Positions 37,888-50,613 of a DNA stretch of 64,000 nucleotides are shown here, one piece after another (position 1 is the stretch's first letter; each line of letters opens with the position of its first letter). A program made the translations under genes and the position numbers. The notes under the pieces were generated by a model, which worked only from the letters and a program-made list of their open reading frames with translations, had not been told where the DNA came from and did no database searches. Source of the DNA: Dermabacter sp. (GTDB lineage: Bacteria; Actinomycetota; Actinomycetes; Actinomycetales; Dermabacteraceae); NCBI GenBank assembly GCA_030538475.1, contig JAUNTX010000003.1, forward strand, positions 1 to 64,000, read 5' to 3'.

Positions 37888-39165
37888 ATGGCATGGATCG
37901 AAAGTTTCAAGGTGCAGGGACTTGCAGGCCGAAAAGAGCCTGTAATTCATACGCTTGATAGGCATCTGAATATTTTTTGGGGACTTAATGGGGCTGGAAA
38001 AACAACGCTTTTTCACATTCTGCACGCTGCACTTGAGGGTGATGCGTCAATCATCGAAGACCTCCCGTTCGAAAGCGCTGAAGTAGTTTTCAAAGATCGT
38101 ATTTCTAAAGGAAGAATACTGAAAGTAACCCGAACGTTTACCAGGGCACTCAAAGAAGTCTCGGAAGTGCACCAAAGCGATATATTTACTTCAACTGGCA
38201 GCTTAGCCTTTGACTCATACTTCCGTTCCGACCATGAGCCGCCTCCGGCCATCGATGAGAATCTTGCGATCGATGATGGATATCTTGACTATGACAGCTA
38301 TCAACAAAGCGGCCGATGGGTGTCCACCTACTCAGTCGACGACCATGGCTTCTTCGTCGATCTCTTCGGACATACGTTCTCCCATTCTTATCTGCCAATT
38401 TCTCGGGTCACAGATGCCGACCGACTCGCTCCCCATTTCCCTGAAGACCGAAGTAGGGTGTCGAACGAAGCGTTCGGCGAACAGATTAGGGAGGTGTGGC
38501 GTGACTATTCGTTGAAGAGCTCTACTGCTATCAGAGACATTCAGCAACAAGGTCTAGCAAAAGTTCTCTCAATCCTGTTTGGAGGTGACCCAAGTGCAAA
38601 AACGGACCAAACTGATGTCGGGGATGTTGCGCCTGACCTAGCATACAGTCTGATCGAAACCTTTCTAGTTGAACAGGACATCCAGTTGCAGATGGATAAG
38701 GCCGCATTTATACAGAGATTCGAGACTTCGACCGAGCATCGACAAGTGGTCGCTGAAATCCAGACTGTTAGACGATTAGTTGATCTTAAACTTGGACCCC
38801 AGAAGGAGTTCCAGAGAATCATCAACTTAATGTTTCGTGGAAACAAGCAGTTGATTCTAGACATCTCCAATAGGTCGCCATTGCTCGGCATGCATCTGAT
38901 CAGAATAGATATCGGCGAGAGCCCAATCCCACTGTATTCACTATCTTCTGGAGAAAAACAGCTTTTGCGGCTTCTCCTGCAGGTTCTCGGAGCGGAAGAT
39001 AGTGCCGTAATTGTCGACGAGCCGGAGCTGTCGCTCCATGTAAACTGGCAGCAGCAGCTCGTCACTTCGATGCAGACAATTAATAGTGACTGCCAGCTGC
39101 TTCTGGCTTCACATTCGCCGGAGATTATGGCCGGGGTGTCCGACGACTACATCATTGAGCTATGA
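37888..39165 (+). CDS. ABC/OLD-type AAA ATPase, PARIS AriA-like
   Basis: A 425-aa ATPase. Walker A is at residues 32-40 (GLNGAGKTT), an ABC-type signature reads LYSLSSGEKQLLRLLL, Walker B is SAVIVDEPELSLH, and a switch histidine lies in LLLASHSPEIM. The middle is a long insert with charged helices. This is the SMC/OLD-like ATPase architecture of defence systems. The next gene overlaps by 4 bases and encodes a TOPRIM-like protein of about 300 aa, as in PARIS (AriA + AriB). ATG 37888 has an AAAGG site. Codon and base use are AT-richer than the core genes, a sign of transfer. Other ATPase-effector pairs remain possible. Confidence 0.7.
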   Translation: MAWIESFKVQGLAGRKEPVIHTLDRHLNIFWGLNGAGKTTLFHILHAALEGDASIIEDLPFESAEVVFKDRISKGRILKVTRTFTRALKEVSEVHQSDIFTSTGSLAFDSYFRSDHEPPPAIDENLAIDDGYLDYDSYQQSGRWVSTYSVDDHGFFVDLFGHTFSHSYLPISRVTDADRLAPHFPEDRSRVSNEAFGEQIREVWRDYSLKSSTAIRDIQQQGLAKVLSILFGGDPSAKTDQTDVGDVAPDLAYSLIETFLVEQDIQLQMDKAAFIQRFETSTEHRQVVAEIQTVRRLVDLKLGPQKEFQRIINLMFRGNKQLILDISNRSPLLGMHLIRIDIGESPIPLYSLSSGEKQLLRLLLQVLGAEDSAVIVDEPELSLHVNWQQQLVTSMQTINSDCQLLLASHSPEIMAGVSDDYIIEL

Positions 39166-40076
39166 GCAACAAGCCCAAGTGGAGTGCTGATGGATTTGCT
39201 CGGCGTGTCAAGATGAGCGAGAGCGACCTGTGGCTGGTTGTCGAGGGAAGAAACCACGACCGCGTTCACTACGAGTTGCTCCTCAAAGCGCTCCCGTCTA
39301 CCCAAAATTTGAGCGTCGCTTTCCATCTCGCCGAGGAAATTGAGCTCGGTGGTGTCTCTGCGGGCGGCAAACCCCATGCCCTTGCTCTGCATGATCATCT
39401 TCAGAAAGGCATGAAACTGACGACAAGTAACAGCTTTTCTAGCTCCACTATTGTTTTCATGCTAGACCGAGATCGAGACGACTTTGAAGGGAAGCTCCGG
39501 AAATTCGGTCACATTGCTTATACATACGGAAACGATGTCGAAGCAGACATCCTTCTGCATGCCGACATATGGGCCGCCTTTCGTGCTACATATGGAGTTG
39601 ATACTTCAATTTCGCAGAAGATTGAGAGCTTGATTGATGACGTGCCAACCAAGCTACTGGATATATGGGAAAGTTGGCAAGTCCTAAGCTTGACCGCTTT
39701 ATACTGCGGCGTGCAAGGATGCGCGCCTTTCAAAAGTCGCTCTCTTGTGAATCCGAATGGCTTTGATGCTCCGGACGAGGCGCTAATAAATGCTGTCGTC
39801 GCTAGAATTCAAGCCGCTGTCGGCCAGGATGCATATACGGCAGGCCGGGCAGTGGCAGTACGGCACATGTCCGTCAACGGAGTCCGGCTACTCAAAGGCG
39901 ATTTCATAGCGGACTATATCGGTTACTTAGTCAAACTGCACTTGAGTGGAGAGACCATCCAGATGCCCAGGGCGACCAATATCGTCTCAACCGCCTTAGT
40001 CGCACTCAAATACCAGGGTCCATGGATAGATAATTACGAAGATAGCTTTTCAAGAATTTTGGATCATTGCATTTGA
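39162..40076 (+). CDS. DUF4435/TOPRIM-like partner, PARIS AriB-like
   Basis: A 304-aa protein translated from an ATGA overlap with the ATPase gene. Near the N-terminus LWLVVEGRNHDRVHYELL holds a conserved-type glutamate (E28), and IVFMLDRDRDDF (residues 98-108) supplies a DxD cluster. A TOPRIM nuclease site has this Glu plus DxD pattern, and DUF4435 proteins share it. YTYGNDVEADIL follows. In PARIS, AriB is held by AriA and released as a toxic nuclease when a phage inhibitor is sensed. I see no other domain. The PARIS assignment rests on pair architecture, size and these residues, not on a full alignment. Confidence 0.6.
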   Translation: MSNKPKWSADGFARRVKMSESDLWLVVEGRNHDRVHYELLLKALPSTQNLSVAFHLAEEIELGGVSAGGKPHALALHDHLQKGMKLTTSNSFSSSTIVFMLDRDRDDFEGKLRKFGHIAYTYGNDVEADILLHADIWAAFRATYGVDTSISQKIESLIDDVPTKLLDIWESWQVLSLTALYCGVQGCAPFKSRSLVNPNGFDAPDEALINAVVARIQAAVGQDAYTAGRAVAVRHMSVNGVRLLKGDFIADYIGYLVKLHLSGETIQMPRATNIVSTALVALKYQGPWIDNYEDSFSRILDHCI

Positions 40077-42750: not shown

Positions 42751-43236
42751 GTCTCGGCATCACCAGCCAACTCGTCACAACGAGATCTCCCGTAACCCTC
42801 AACAGGCACCACCGGGGCCCTCAAATAGCCCCGAAATATGACAAAGCCCAGGTCAAAAACAATCTCTGACCTGGGCTTTTGTGGTCGGGCTGACAGGATT
42901 TGAACCTGCGACCCCTTGACCCCCAATTGGCAGGAATATGGATCTCACCCCACCTGAAAAGGGGGTTTCTGTTTCGGGTGCGTGCCCTGCGCGCCACGTT
43001 TTGCAGGGTTTGCAGACTGTTGGTCACCTGATTGGTCCACTTCATCGAAGTCTCTGGGGTGCTAACTGGGGCACACTGGCAACCCTCCGAGCAGAGCCTT
43101 CGCCGTAGGCAATACAGCCAGCCGAATACATTAAACTGAACCTTAGGGCGTCACACAGTCAGCCACCCCGAGGACTGTCCGCATGGAGATCGCACGGGCA
43201 GGAGAATCAGAACTCAGGCAGCGCCTGGACGATCAG
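42751..43236. other. Intergenic stretch holding the left attachment repeat
   Basis: Contains the left 86-bp repeat (42840-42925). From 42926 to 43236 I see no gene, RNA or integrase. Short open frames on both strands have no family resemblance. Confidence 0.5.
42840..42925 (-). repeat. Left attachment-type repeat: partial tRNA-Pro 3' half plus its terminator
   Basis: This matches 50495-50580 with two mismatches in 86 bases. It includes the terminator hairpin downstream of tRNA-Pro (42843-42880) and the 3' half of the tRNA (from 42886). Similarity stops in the anticodon region at 42925, after TTGACCCCCA. The remainder of the tRNA is absent, so it is not a functional tRNA gene. This is the pattern left by integration into a tRNA 3' end. 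Confidence 0.85.
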
Positions 43237-44475
43237 CTAAGTTGCCACTGTTGCGACAGCAGATGCCGATTTCGGAGTGTGAGGTACCGAGAGCACATCT
43301 CGACGTTCTGGTCGATGACTTTCCAGCACCGAAATAATCGCTGTGCGTGGCTCGAAAAGAAGAACTGCTTCTTTCAGAGCTCGCCGCCCTCCTCTTCCTC
43401 CTTCACCTGAACTCCCGCCCAGCGTGCTATGAGTCGAATCAACGTAGTGTTCACGGATATGCCATGAATCTCCCGCCAGCGCCACAATGTCACTACTACT
43501 GAGACCGTTGCTTGCGTCAGCGTCAGGGAATGTCACTAACACCCTGCATGACCTTCCCCGAAGAGCTCTGAGGAGTTCTGACATAGCACCAGAGGCCTGA
43601 CTCTTCATGCTGAAATCGGAGGATTTCCGGAGGGCCCGCGCCGGCGATCTACCCGCGCCAGCTACAGCATTCCATCCACCTTGAGCAATTCCTTCTAGCA
43701 CATGGTAGAAGCGACTGTACTGAACGGCGGAATAAGGCGGGTCGCAGAACACAAGATCATCTTCTCCGAGACTAGATACGACTTCCAGAGCGTCACCCAC
43801 ACGACCTTCGCCCTTCATCCTTGCGTGTCGTGCTGCGAGCATAGTAACTTGGCGCTGACATTCACGGACGACGTCTCTGCTCCAGGCTGACTTTATGTAT
43901 GGCAGTAGCTTGGGGGTGGGCTGAAAAGGCTGCGCCGTGTGCCCAGGGGCGGCCGCACAAATGCTAGCCGCATGGAGTAGAGCAGCGAGACCTAGAGTTC
44001 GATCGGGCTCCACATTCGGAAGCCCCTCATACAACCGATCTAGTGTATACGCTTGCTGCGGCGAGAAGTAGTGCCCTCCATAATGCTGAGTGACGAACCC
44101 GACGCCAACAGTGCTTTCAGAATTTCGTCGGGCCCGTAGGACAGTCGCCTTTCCAAGATGCGCAATTGGCTCGCGCAGAGTCTCATAGATCGGATCGTCG
44201 AGTAGGCCCCTACTCACGCCTGCCGTCCACTTGTTAAGAATCGGACCGTCAGTCTGAGGGCGATCCCGGCCCGTAATGCTCTCGGCAAGAACCTTCGAAT
44301 AGTGCTGTAAGTCAACACTCAACACAGGGATATCGATGTTCTCCGCAACATAGTGGCTGACAGAACCAGATCCGGAGAACAGATCCACAAACCGCGACGC
44401 ATCCGTGCTAGACGCGACGAGGATCTCACCCAGCTCTCCTCGGAGTAGGGCGCTCTTGCTTCCCATATACTTCAC
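43237..44475 (-). CDS. Adenine-specific DNA methyltransferase (Dam/D12-like)
   Basis: A 412-aa methyltransferase. It opens with KYMGSK, typical of Dam-like N6-adenine methyltransferases. The AdoMet motif I is VDLFSGSGSVSHYV (residues 30-43) and the catalytic motif IV is CDPPYSAVQY (DPPY at 245-248). It presumably modifies adenines in a short target. The GTG at 44475 has a GGAAGG site. It is the third gene of a minus-strand operon after a DGQHR protein and an unrecognised protein, 40 bases downstream of the latter. No restriction endonuclease is apparent. Base composition is AT-richer than the core. Confidence 0.85.
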   Translation of the reverse strand: MKYMGSKSALLRGELGEILVASSTDASRFVDLFSGSGSVSHYVAENIDIPVLSVDLQHYSKVLAESITGRDRPQTDGPILNKWTAGVSRGLLDDPIYETLREPIAHLGKATVLRARRNSESTVGVGFVTQHYGGHYFSPQQAYTLDRLYEGLPNVEPDRTLGLAALLHAASICAAAPGHTAQPFQPTPKLLPYIKSAWSRDVVRECQRQVTMLAARHARMKGEGRVGDALEVVSSLGEDDLVFCDPPYSAVQYSRFYHVLEGIAQGGWNAVAGAGRSPARALRKSSDFSMKSQASGAMSELLRALRGRSCRVLVTFPDADASNGLSSSDIVALAGDSWHIREHYVDSTHSTLGGSSGEGGRGGRRALKEAVLLFEPRTAIISVLESHRPERRDVLSVPHTPKSASAVATVAT

Positions 44476-44515
44476 GCGAGCGCACCTTCCTTCAGTAGAA
44501 TGCTCGCCCCAAGTC

Positions 44516-45853
44516 TCAAGCGAAGCTCCATGCGACTACACGCTCTGCTTGCCCAAGGGTAAGGAGCTGGGTGCCGACGGCGTGAAGCAGAGCATGCGGG
44601 CTCGCGTGAGTCGCCGAGTCAAGCGTCACTCGGGCATCTTCGACATCTGACCAGAGATCCAACATGTCCTCGGGGAGGTCATCAGCTTCCCAAAGTCCAC
44701 GAACGAAGCTGAGCGACCGAACCCACGGCGCGATGCTCGCGTTCGTCAGCGCCGAGTCCTCAAGGAGGTGCGCGCACGATCCGGTAGCGATCCGCAATAA
44801 CACCGATGTTCGAGAAAGCATCGCTTCCATAAACTCAACTGGTGAAACAGAGCTGTTATCCGCATCAAAGAGGGCCGACAGGATCGGCTGGTTAGGCATC
44901 GACATCAGCTCTTCGAAAAGAGCAGTACCGTGCGTCGATGCAGGAGCGACCTGCCGTAGCCAGCCTTCCCACTCGGACCAATCAGTCTCGCCGGTGAGCT
45001 CGCCACTATCGTCTTCTTCTTGGTGCGTAGGAACATACGATGCCTTGAGGATATCCTTAAGTAGAAGCTGATCCAAAATAGGGAAAGTGCCGCGAGAATT
45101 CGGCTCAAGCACCTGCCAGAACTTTGAGACCGTACTCGCAGTCGCCTCAACGCTAAGATCCTCGATGACAAGCCGGGTAGGCGTATAGCTCGCCGTGTTT
45201 CTCCGCGAACGATCATTTGCGAATGACTGCAGATCGAACGCCATACGGGTGAGAAGTTCAGATACCGCCGAACTTACGCCGCCAGCAGGCATGTTCTGTG
45301 CCCAAACACCAAGCGCCGTTCCGCCTGGCCGAAGAATCTTTGCGATCAGCGACTTCGAACGCGCCTGATCATTCCATGCCGACAAGAACTTCCAAGCCGC
45401 AATATGGGTAGAATCGTTCGTCACGAGCTCGAATGCGCCGCCAGCCGTTAACGCGAAATTTACGCCGTTACCGATGTAGATACCTTCCGAGGCAAGAAGA
45501 GAGATGGCCCCCCTTAACTCGGCATAATAAGTGAGATGCACAGCTCCGTGGATGTCACCGCGCATCAATGCATCAACTGCGCGGCCAAGATATCCCCAGG
45601 CATCGCCACAATGAACAAAAGAGCTGGCCGCCAGATACTTTGCAAATTCTGCTTGAGTCGCAGCAGGTACAACGCTTCCGTCGGTTTTGATACGGTCTTG
45701 CGCCATCTTGCTGTACACGTTGCCGGGATCTAACCATTCAGCAGTTTCCGGAATTGAGATGCCGCTCAGGGCATTGACGACTTCTTGGCGCGAGGCCCGC
45801 CCAAGAATCGTCCGTTTTGCAGCGCCGAGCGGTTGCTGGATACGAGCCGCCAC
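44516..45853 (-). CDS. Unrecognised protein between DGQHR and methyltransferase genes
   Basis: A 445-aa protein of no family I can name. It looks largely alpha-helical and soluble, with no signal peptide, membrane segment, P-loop, zinc motif or clear nuclease motif. The region GDIHGAVHLTYYAELRGAIS and a following GIYIGNGVNFAL stretch stand out as possibly conserved. The GTG at 45853 lies one base after the DGQHR stop and shares a GGGA site, so coupling is likely; an upstream GTG at 45907 would overlap that gene by 53 bases. Its place between a DGQHR protein and a DNA methyltransferase suggests a role in DNA modification or defence. Confidence 0.75.
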   Translation of the reverse strand: MAARIQQPLGAAKRTILGRASRQEVVNALSGISIPETAEWLDPGNVYSKMAQDRIKTDGSVVPAATQAEFAKYLAASSFVHCGDAWGYLGRAVDALMRGDIHGAVHLTYYAELRGAISLLASEGIYIGNGVNFALTAGGAFELVTNDSTHIAAWKFLSAWNDQARSKSLIAKILRPGGTALGVWAQNMPAGGVSSAVSELLTRMAFDLQSFANDRSRRNTASYTPTRLVIEDLSVEATASTVSKFWQVLEPNSRGTFPILDQLLLKDILKASYVPTHQEEDDSGELTGETDWSEWEGWLRQVAPASTHGTALFEELMSMPNQPILSALFDADNSSVSPVEFMEAMLSRTSVLLRIATGSCAHLLEDSALTNASIAPWVRSLSFVRGLWEADDLPEDMLDLWSDVEDARVTLDSATHASPHALLHAVGTQLLTLGQAERVVAWSFA

Positions 45854-45854
45854 T

Positions 45855-47387
45855 TCAAGATCCCAGGTGGTTAGCTGCGCGTGCAATGTCAGAGAAACTT
45901 GAAGCACGCAAATGACTTGCTAGCTGTGAGCGAAGTTCCTTGTACCCTCCGCTTCCGCGCAATGCTGCTTTCGCTAGCCGCGCCTGTTCGTTAAGATCGG
46001 GGGCCCCACTCGTCCTCCAGTCAAACGTCGTCAGCGCCTCGCAAAGATGATTCAAGAACTCGAATACAGGTTGGTCTTTCAGCGTTTCCGCAGTCGCTGC
46101 AACGTTCTCGGGAGTAACATCGGCAAAATCAGAAAAATCTTGCCAGGCAGCGAGGCTCAGTTCTTTTTGCCGGATGAAGCAGAGGTCATTCACGACGTAC
46201 TGGAAGCCTCGAACACCCTGGTCGGTCGCGAGCAAGGTGTTCGCACCAGTGAAGGCAGGATCGTGGTAGGTCGTACGAACCCCACTCAACTCATCAAATT
46301 CGGCGGCCTGCTGTCGCAAGATCTCCGCCCACTCTGGCTTAGCTCGCTTAGTCTTCTCAGCAAGCAGCTTCCAGGCGGTCAGCAGAAATGCCGACTGCTG
46401 CAACCTAGACCAGGAAAGCCCGTCGCTGCTGTCAGGCGTTCCACCGAAGATGCCTCCAGGCCCCTTGTATGAACGCCATGATTTGACCATGCTCGCTATC
46501 AGGCTGCGAATAAATGCCGCCTGAGTCACCGGCCCGTTCTCTTTGCGTGTCCCGCCAAGCATGTTGATCCGGCGATACCAAGGGCTATCGGGGCTAGACC
46601 AAAGTACCTCGGTTAGCTCCTGCGCACGACTCTCACGATAGACGTGCACCACTTCGCCGCTCTCTAGCCAGTCCTGCTCGCGCAGCAGAGGGTATAGATC
46701 GAACGCTAGCGAAGGATTAATCTTCTTGGGCTTGATGTTAATCGTCCAGAAGAGATAGGCCTGCCAAGATATATCCAACCCGTGAAATGCGACTACTGGC
46801 AGATAGTAGTCTTCAACATCTGCATCGTCATCGTCGAATGCAAAGAGCCGGTGCTGACCATCAATGACCTCAATGGGTGGGATTCGATCTGCATCATCTT
46901 CCGTCGGAGAAGGCAAGTACAACGACGCGGAGGTCGACTCCGCATCGTCAGCGACGCGAATTACGTTATCAGCGGTCGCAGTTTTGCCAGATCGGACATC
47001 GCCCTCTGTGAGAATATTTACTACAACCGCGGTGGGCAGCCACCCTGGCTTCTTAAGGCTGTCATTCTCTGTGTTACGGCGCTTCGCCTCGCTGAGGCCA
47101 GACCAAGGGTATCCGCCCTCGACGTATCTCCTAATTTCTTCGCTACGTTCCGGATCATGCTTGCGCTGAATACCCAGATCGTCTTTTCGGGGTGCAATGA
47201 CCTCCGTGGAACGACGATAGATCCCCGCAAGCTTGCGTAGCTGCGACGCAGGGAGCGAGAACAAGTAGAAGTGTTCTTTGGGGCGCGCTTGCCTCTGTGA
47301 TTCATCATAGGTTAGCTCGTTCCACTGGGCTAACCACTGCCGTACGCGAAGAGCCGGGACCGGCGCCGGTGGATCCTGCTGTGCCAT
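45855..47387 (-). CDS. DGQHR-domain protein (DndB/DpdB-like)
   Basis: A 510-aa protein with the motif IEVIDGQHRLFAF (DGQHR at 176-180). This defines a ParB/sulfiredoxin-like fold family that includes DndB, the regulator of DNA phosphorothioation, and DpdB of deazaguanine DNA modification. An N-terminal segment of about 170 residues and a long helical C-terminus flank it. The ATG at 47387 has an AGGAGA site. It is the first gene of the three-gene operon. No dndA, dndC-E or dpd genes are in the window, so it is not a standard Dnd or Dpd locus. Confidence 0.8.
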   Translation of the reverse strand: MAQQDPPAPVPALRVRQWLAQWNELTYDESQRQARPKEHFYLFSLPASQLRKLAGIYRRSTEVIAPRKDDLGIQRKHDPERSEEIRRYVEGGYPWSGLSEAKRRNTENDSLKKPGWLPTAVVVNILTEGDVRSGKTATADNVIRVADDAESTSASLYLPSPTEDDADRIPPIEVIDGQHRLFAFDDDDADVEDYYLPVVAFHGLDISWQAYLFWTINIKPKKINPSLAFDLYPLLREQDWLESGEVVHVYRESRAQELTEVLWSSPDSPWYRRINMLGGTRKENGPVTQAAFIRSLIASMVKSWRSYKGPGGIFGGTPDSSDGLSWSRLQQSAFLLTAWKLLAEKTKRAKPEWAEILRQQAAEFDELSGVRTTYHDPAFTGANTLLATDQGVRGFQYVVNDLCFIRQKELSLAAWQDFSDFADVTPENVAATAETLKDQPVFEFLNHLCEALTTFDWRTSGAPDLNEQARLAKAALRGSGGYKELRSQLASHLRASSFSDIARAANHLGS

Positions 47388-47526
47388 CCTGGTTCTCCTG
47401 GTTCGAGGTCTGATCGTCCACTACACTCTAGACTATGCGCCGGTCTGACATAGACCCAGCTCAACGACTCCGTGGTGACCGGTTGGCGACGTCGAGGCGC
47501 TCCTAGGTGACTGCGGATACAGGGAC
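47388..47526. other. Upstream region of the DGQHR operon
   Basis: Contains the promoter area of the minus-strand operon, with several TA-rich hexamers near 47420-47440 but no clear -35/-10 pair. It ends at the IS3-family left inverted repeat. Confidence 0.3.
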
Positions 47527-47582
47527 TGTTGCGCCCCGGGTTTGGTGGAGGCTCTCAACCCTGGAAGGGGCGATTGAGTGTC

Positions 47583-47849
47583 ATGGCAGCACTGAGGAAG
47601 TACAGCCCTATGCTGAAGCAACGGGCAACACGGATGGCGTTGGACGCGCGCAGGGATCCAGAATCCGCGCGTGGGGCTACCACACGTGTCGCAGACCAGT
47701 TGGAGGTCCACCCAGAGGCCTGCGGACCTAGGTTCGGCAAGCCGAAGTCGACGACGGAATCCGCCCCGGCACGACAAGTGACGATGCGACCCGGCTGGCC
47801 GAGCTCGAGCGCGAGGTCCGTGAGCTTCGTCGAGCCAGCAAAATTCTGA
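47583..47849 (+). pseudogene. IS3-family OrfA, degraded
   Basis: It begins MAALRKYSPMLKQRATRMAL and continues GATTRVADQLEVHPEA, the N-terminal helix-turn-helix part of an IS3 OrfA. The frame is then lost; the coiled-coil part appears in another frame (ELEREVRELRRASKIL-like sequence around 47810-47850). Not functional. Confidence 0.7.
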
Positions 47850-48345
47850 AAACGAGCGCGGTTTTTTCGCAGCTGCGGAGCTCGAGGGCACGATCGGATA
47901 GCGGTACCAACCACGGTGATTGTCGACTACATCGATAGCCACCGCGGACGGTTCGTGGCCTGGCCGATCTGCGCCGTCGTGAAGGACGCTGGCTTGCAGA
48001 TCACCCTGAGCACGCACGACGCCACCAAGTCCAGGCCACGCTCAGCGCGCAGCGCGCGCGATGCCGAGTTGGTGGCAGACATCAAGACCGCTCACAAAGC
48101 GAACCTGGATGTCTACGGTGCCCGGAAGACCCACGCCGAACTCAACCGTGAAGGCGTCACCGTGGCACGGTGCACCGTCGAACGGCTCATGCGTGCCGAA
48201 GGCCTGCGTGAGATCGTGCGGGAAAAGACCCGCACGACCACCATCGGTGACGGTGCTGAGAGCGAGCGACCCGAAGACCAGGTGCAGCGGAAGTTCGTCG
48301 CGGCCGCGCCGAATCAGTTGTGGGTGGCCTATCTGACGTACGTAG

Positions 48346-49988
<1,643 letters not shown>

Positions 49989-50366
49989 TCAGTATCGAGC
50001 GATTCGCTACACCGAGCGGCTTGCCGAAGCTCAGGCAGTCGCATCGCTGGGATCCCGCGGCGACTCGTAAGCGTCAACGCGATGACTGAAGCGCTAAACG
50101 CGCTGTTCAAGGCCGAGTGCATCCGAAACCCAGCCATGCGGCCGAAGGGCGGCCGGGCGTCGGTGCGTGATGTCGAGATCGCCGTCGCTGAATACGTCAA
50201 CTGGTTCAACCACAGGCGTTTACACGGCCAGATCGGCCTCGTCCCACCGGCCACCTTCGAAGCAGAACGCTGAGCAGCACAAGACATCAAGCACTACCAT
50301 GAGAACCCGGTCCTCATCGAGGCCGGAACCAACTAACCGAGCCTCCACAAAACCCGGGGCGCAACA

Positions 50367-50494
50367 CCCTCCGCAAAGGCTGGGCCGGACGCTGGCACCC
50401 CTAGAACCCGCCCGACACGCCGAGCCCATACACACATTTCTGCCTATAACCCACCAGCGCTTCACCAGCGGCGCCCTCAAATGGCTCCAAGCAC
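50367..50494. other. Gap between the IS3 right end and the right repeat
   Basis: No gene seen. The last 26 bases resemble those just left of the 42840 repeat, at lower identity, so the duplicated segment may once have been longer. Confidence 0.4.

Positions 50495-50613
<119 letters not shown>

Follow-up and report, generated by a model that had tools for sequence, protein, structure and literature searches.

A DGQHR-domain protein and its co-encoded partner MID: a conserved gene pair beside exchangeable DNA-modification enzymes, possibly a mobile guard module

Genes for a DGQHR-domain protein and for a middle protein (MID) form a conserved and tightly coupled pair, beside which the DNA-modification enzyme has repeatedly been exchanged and which is under purifying selection and spread by mobile elements. 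With an adenine methyltransferase as third member, this unit (trio) is tentatively regarded as a mobile sensor-effector module coupled to DNA modification, providing a guard or abortive response that would back up the modification system. Neither the trio nor MID was found described in the literature searched, in agreement with a preliminary description of the locus, made from the sequence alone, that had suggested the layout would be new, with a DGQHR sensor or nucleotidase and a novel effector as putative functions. In the passages retrieved from the nearest general survey, which deals with ParB-CTPase folds, only DndB-like proteins are mentioned, and the DGQHR-MID pair does not appear in those retrieved from a reappraisal of Dnd systems.

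The window, a DNA stretch of 64,000 nucleotides from Dermabacter sp., harbours three intact, coupled genes on the minus strand, encoding the DGQHR-domain protein (45855..47387; 510 amino acids), MID (44516..45853; 445 amino acids) and an N6-adenine DNA methyltransferase of the D12 class (43237..44475; 412 amino acids). The gene order, coordinates and coupling given in the preliminary description thus hold. A single base separates the stop codon of the DGQHR gene from the GTG start of MID at 45853; the methyltransferase gene also starts with GTG, with GAAGGAAGG a short distance upstream. The GC content of the operon amounts to 55–56 %, versus 69 % in a core region of the host. A homologous block in Gordonia, which spans the whole operon and ends about 100 bp beyond it in either direction, shares 85.5 % nucleotide identity with the window copy over 4357 bp. 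The dN/dS ratios between the two copies (0.05, 0.13 and 0.14 across the three genes; NG86) indicate purifying selection on all three genes, and the trio therefore moves as a unit and is retained by selection.

The operon is located on an island of 7.65 kb flanked by an 86-bp direct repeat, which consists of the 3' end of tRNA-Pro and a terminator. The left copy (42840..42925), containing the partial tRNA-Pro 3' end and terminator, forms the island boundary, and the right copy (50495..50580) overlaps the intact tRNA-Pro gene (50538..50613, minus strand, anticodon ggg), as identified with ARAGORN. The copies are 98 % identical, and the whole genome contains these two full copies and no third; the tRNA-Pro gene is the likely integration site of the island. 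Apparent remnants of IS3-like and IS30-like transposases, recognized solely by inspection of ORF sequences, fill the rest of the island (47433..50494), and no integrase was seen among the ORFs inspected. By inspection of the island ORFs, no restriction enzyme (as already noted in the preliminary description), hence no cognate endonuclease of a type II restriction-modification (R-M) system, and no dnd genes were found. A PADLOC scan of the three genes for signature genes of BREX, DISARM, Dpd and MADS yielded only methyltransferase models and weak matches to mad2 and DpdB. An anti-phage-type gene pair (37888-40076; GC content 49 %) lies about 2.8 kb outside the repeat, so that the tRNA-bounded island proposed earlier stands and its direct adjacency to this pair does not. 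The pair is PARIS-like and encodes an AAA ATPase (PADLOC AriA, 3e-32) followed by a protein of 304 amino acids, which matched no family and resembles TOPRIM/DUF4435 proteins by eye (VEGRNHD, LDRDRDD).

Assignment of the methyltransferase to the D12 class is based on its match to PF02086 (56.2 bits versus a cut-off of 22) and on the motifs I (DLFSGSG) and IV (DPPY); it also matches the PADLOC model MTase_II (4e-20). The earlier designation as Dam-like needs correction in that the enzyme does not belong to the Dam family model TIGR00571 (21 bits versus a cut-off of 114.85). A sequence search against PDB retrieved no significant match.

The DGQHR-domain protein, presumably a ParB/Srx-type NTPase or sensor, exceeds the cut-off of TIGR03187 (81.2 versus 58.85 bits) and barely that of PF14072 (DndB; 31.3 versus 29.1 bits). 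An alignment of 29 homologues revealed conservation of Q74R75, D176GQHR180 (the position reported before) and F213xxxN217, i.e. of the QR, DGQHR and FxxxN motifs by which DGQHR proteins and DUF262/GmrS are grouped together under the ParB/Srx fold (PMC4619093). The protein did not match the DndB equivalog model TIGR03233, remained far under the cut-off of TIGR04172 (DNA phosphorothioation-associated DGQHR protein 1; 59.2 bits, cut-off 450) and did not match the DpdB model NF041060 at E values up to 1; the PADLOC model of DpdB matched weakly (30.7 bits). Its structure was modelled with moderate confidence (pLDDT 78.6), and a Foldseek search of PDB with this model placed SspE at ranks 2 and 9 without significance (E 0.76). 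A PDB sequence search with the DGQHR profile gave no significant match, and a scan of viral sequences with a single DGQHR protein from Acinetobacter gave no relatives.

MID is mostly helical according to a confident AlphaFold model (pLDDT 88.2, pTM 0.90). Its invariant residues, numbered in the 448-residue frame of the alignments (the predicted protein has 445 amino acids), are D87, W89, H109, YY112-113, R117, TH152-153, W157, W163, D210, R221 and Y226. MID, alone or together with its homologues, matched none of the families of Pfam, NCBIfam, PADLOC and PHROGs, as anticipated for the 445-amino-acid protein in the preliminary description, which had also suggested folding it and searching structure databases. 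Foldseek comparison of the model with PDB and BFVD accordingly assigned no function: no match was obtained, the alignments being long and of high rmsd, such that a small shared domain may remain. A PDB sequence search with the MID profile likewise produced no significant match, and a viral scan with the window MID alone no relatives. A HEPN identity, suggested by a YYA..AA..LL hairpin, TH and RN..SY, was considered and found no support beyond the hairpin: a 36-residue match scored 27.4 versus a maximum of 25.9 for shuffled sequences (reached by 0 of 150), the global alignment failed, and the RX4-6H ribonuclease motif is absent, the conserved R221-N-x2-S-Y226 lacking a histidine. YaaC (PF14175) was set aside as a candidate relative after a comparison by eye with two members. 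MID thus carries no recognisable effector signature, and the effector role proposed below is suggested by its position and by the corresponding slot in a sister branch.

Altogether, 44 DGQHR-MID loci were collected from genomes, plasmids and prophages (28 from a GTDB profile scan, 2 distinct ones from plasmids, 12 distinct ones from IMG/VR, 1 from a whole-genome search, and the window). They belong to ten phyla: Actinomycetota, Pseudomonadota, Cyanobacteriota, Chloroflexota, Planctomycetota, Nitrospinota, Verrucomicrobiota, Bacteroidota, Binatota and KSB1. At 42 of the 43 loci with both genes, MID follows the DGQHR gene immediately and in the same orientation, with a gap of at most 44 nt; the 44th locus (L021) is ended by a contig edge and was not counted here. 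The single exception (L048, 6626-11520) has an insertion element inside the pair and an intact methyltransferase gene. Another locus (L030, 588-5283) combines an MT-A70 methyltransferase, a BglII-family restriction endonuclease, a DGQHR gene broken into two ORFs and MID. Here the module is linked to a full R-M system, and its sensor has apparently decayed. Prevalence of the pair is low and scattered, like that of mobile defence genes: it was present in 3 of 297 genomes for the class of the window and, among other groups, in 1 of 292, 2 of 385 and 1 of 199 (the genome taken as centre is part of every count). Mobile carriage is evident from prophages (beside repressors or integrases), plasmids, among them one of Zymomonas mobilis ZM4 with the three-gene unit, and the tRNA island; chromosomal loci in many phyla show no evident mobile element. 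Defence genes in the neighbourhood of some loci include a DUF4433 and macro-domain pair, type I R-M, PbeA-like and DrmMI-like genes.

A gene for DNA modification is present beside the pair at 42 of the 44 loci. Most frequent, at 27 loci, is a long D12 enzyme like that encoded in the window, followed by the classic Dam-like D12 enzyme (8) and, at one locus, a D12 relative encoded upstream. N6_N4 (PF01555) and MT-A70 enzymes occur at two loci each, one of the latter with a BglII-family nuclease, and the phosphorothioation genes dnd at two, both in Pseudanabaena (L010 and L017). Of the two remaining loci, one (L015) has no adjacent modification gene and the other is ended by a contig edge. The dnd genes of Pseudanabaena are arranged in the order TIGR04062-DGQHR-MID-DndC-DndD plus a DndE-like ORF, with DndC identified by NCBIfam in both genomes and DndD in L017, and the DGQHR-MID pair occupies the position of DndB in both operons. 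Upstream of dnd, HKD/helicase-like and CxC-type ABC ATPase-like genes were noticed by inspection (L010:460-17524, L017:1281-15899).

On the tree of DGQHR and MID, the type of modification gene changed at least 11 times, and for the D12 label at least 8 changes are forced by well supported branches. For example, the long D12 locus L020 is sister to the MT-A70 and BglII-family locus L030 with 100 % support, and the Dnd loci are nested among D12 loci. DGQHR and MID are thus the constant pair and the methyltransferase is the variable part. The check proposed earlier, whether all three genes stay together near defence genes, has a qualified outcome: the trio recurs as a unit in many phyla and often lies beside defence genes, but the methyltransferase is its exchangeable member. 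The earlier statement that dnd genes are absent holds for the window locus and not across the family. Since the modification type changes so often, the common element is the presence of a DNA-modification system rather than one enzyme, and the fact that the chemistry can be exchanged suggests that DGQHR and MID recognise a feature shared by all these enzymes. A role of DGQHR-MID as methyltransferase-specific subunit is unlikely, given the unrelated enzyme types.

A sister branch provides a second view of the partner slot. Its more distant DGQHR proteins are homologous over their full length to those of the trio (hhalign E 1.8e-26). Ahead of them is encoded a small protein with 2–4 hydrophobic segments, i.e. 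a putative transmembrane (TM) protein, for which no relation to MID was detected by hhalign. DGQHR is therefore constant while its partner differs. On the DGQHR tree, which has some long branches and an unsure deeper order, the MID-partnered proteins group in a single clade (support 100). Modification genes of the sister loci comprise a D12 methylase with a BglII/BstYI nuclease in Acinetobacter, MT-A70 with BglII/BstYI on a Rhizobium pRi plasmid and a Dam-family enzyme in Roseateles. Linkage to dnd was observed in Pontibrevibacter, Aureimonas, Mesorhizobium, Rhizobium leguminosarum, Aliivibrio, Pseudoalteromonas and E. coli H240, the last with a split DGQHR gene. In Aliivibrio, the TM-DGQHR pair is located between dptH and dndE, adjoining dndBCDE. 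Both R. leguminosarum and Aliivibrio possess dndB in addition to the TM-DGQHR pair, which is therefore not a stand-in for DndB; replacement of DndB as a general rule was rejected on these grounds. The small multi-TM protein and DGQHR beside dnd genes in L136:4470-10188 and L140:4357-10427 apparently represent an undescribed accessory of Dnd systems. Two Gram-positive sister cases on plasmids of lactic acid bacteria (L141:2933-4885, L145:3024-4900) encode a protein of 260–273 amino acids with two hydrophobic segments together with DGQHR and have no adjacent methyltransferase gene, one of them being near an HsdR gene. In a prophage case from Acinetobacter, the methyltransferase is encoded upstream, and the downstream partner is devoid of hydrophobic segments. 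Nucleases of the BglII/BstYI family are repeatedly encoded next to DGQHR pairs from either branch (L131:1084-5051, L132:2261-7140, L144:1303-6182), which, together with the Dam-like enzymes, hints at a shared GATC-type site.

According to the proposed mechanism, the methyltransferase would keep the host DNA methylated at N6 of adenine, and the DGQHR protein, as a ParB/Srx-type nucleotide-binding switch, would read the modification state of the DNA. Binding of NTP is assumed by family membership, a DndB-like ParB protein being reported to bind ATP/GTP (PMC12704722). Reading of the mark is suggested by genetic association and by analogy with SspE and DndI, whose DGQQR-motif ParB/Srx domains sense the host mark, hydrolyse NTP (through the motif arginine in SspE) and govern the HNH nuclease to which they are fused (PMC13251355, PMC11662687). 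If the mark were missing or disturbed, as on unmarked invading DNA or upon blocking of methylation by a phage, DGQHR would switch its state, and MID, encoded directly behind it, may then serve as its effector and turn against the cell or the infection. We favour such a guard or abortive response over direct cleavage of DNA, seeing that a small membrane protein can fill the partner slot and that some loci have a nuclease of their own. More tentatively still, DGQHR with a co-encoded effector may represent a general, chemistry-blind guard of DNA marks that fits methylation or phosphorothioation and whose exchangeable effector, MID or a membrane protein, fires upon loss of the mark.

Direct restriction in the manner of SspE and DndI appears somewhat unlikely. 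Here, DGQHR would read the mark, its NTPase would switch and DGQHR-MID would nick or degrade unmarked invading DNA, as accomplished by SspE and DndI with the related DGQQR motif (PMC13251355, PMC11662687). Most loci do contain a methyltransferase gene and no other restriction gene, and ParB/Srx proteins are able to nick DNA (PMC12839542, PMC10853773). This explanation demands, however, that MID or the C-terminal part of DGQHR is an unrecognised nuclease, and HNH, DUF1524 and PD-(D/E)XK families had no match in either protein (Pfam; 31 MID proteins tested). The small membrane protein in the partner slot of the sister branch also argues against it, as do the BglII-family, Pbe-like or DptH nucleases already present at some loci.

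A limiting or regulatory function, in which the pair would restrain the level or timing of modification without killing, is unlikely. It has a model in the DGQHR relative DndB, which is reported to regulate dnd genes negatively (PMC4507180; see also PMC10853773) and whose position is taken by the pair at the two Pseudanabaena dnd loci. Coexistence of the TM-DGQHR pair with dndB conflicts with such a function, and the frequent spread by prophages and plasmids better suits a defensive or selfish role. A single limiter acting for unrelated methyltransferases would, moreover, be without precedent known to us. A selfish anti-restriction cassette, in which the methyltransferase would shield the element against restriction by the host while DGQHR-MID would ensure its maintenance (addiction), accords with carriage on prophages, plasmids and the tRNA island and with the decayed copies L048 and L030, in which a broken DGQHR gene accompanies an intact methyltransferase gene, but is very unlikely considering the chromosomal loci without evident element in many phyla and the loci at which the pair accompanies complete R-M or Dnd systems.

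Should the preferred guard mechanism apply, sensing of DNA marks by DGQHR/ParB-fold switches would be modular and untied from phosphorothioation. The chemistry-blind version would amount to a class of immune systems defined by monitoring of the own DNA modification instead of by a single modification or nuclease. Many proteins annotated as 'DGQHR domain-containing' or 'hypothetical' beside methyltransferases and dnd genes would thereby obtain a testable role, and the compact three-gene unit would offer an experimental handle on the role of DGQHR in DNA-modification systems.

Several known systems share features with the trio. Type II R-M systems with BglII/BstYI-family nucleases occur at some DGQHR loci of both branches (L030, L131, L132), while the window locus has no restriction enzyme. 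GmrSD/BrxU type IV restriction systems (DUF262-DUF1524) carry the same ParB/Srx-fold motifs (QR, DGQxR and FxxxN); the trio of the window differs from them by the absence of a DUF1524/HNH part and the presence of a methyltransferase. DpdB of 7-deazaguanine DNA modification is likewise a DGQHR/ParB-like protein encoded beside a DNA-modification enzyme, but the window protein has no NCBIfam match to DpdB, other Dpd genes are absent from its locus and the chemistry is different. DndB (TIGR03233) and DGQHR_dnd_1 (TIGR04172) have the DGQHR domain in common with the window protein, and some relatives of the trio reside inside dnd operons; the window protein, however, fails the equivalog matches, is co-encoded with MID and has no dnd genes at its locus. 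Closest in concept are SspE (SspABCD-SspE) and DndI (DndBCDE-DndI), in which a sensor of the ParB/Srx superfamily with a DGQ(Q/H)R motif is also coupled to a DNA-modification system. DndI is a demonstrated phosphorothioate-sensing antiphage DUF262-HNH protein encoded with dndFGH beside dndBCDE in Salmonella (PMC11662687), and the TM-DGQHR pair of Aliivibrio, like DndI, adjoins dndBCDE. SspE and DndI are fusions of the sensor with an HNH nuclease, and their mark is a phosphorothioate, whereas the trio has a separate, unrelated helical partner without nuclease motif and its usual mark is predicted to be m6A. The trio does not belong to the SspE/DndI family, because a test for the HNH part showed it to be missing; by analogy, it may work like a split, chemistry-blind counterpart of SspE and DndI.
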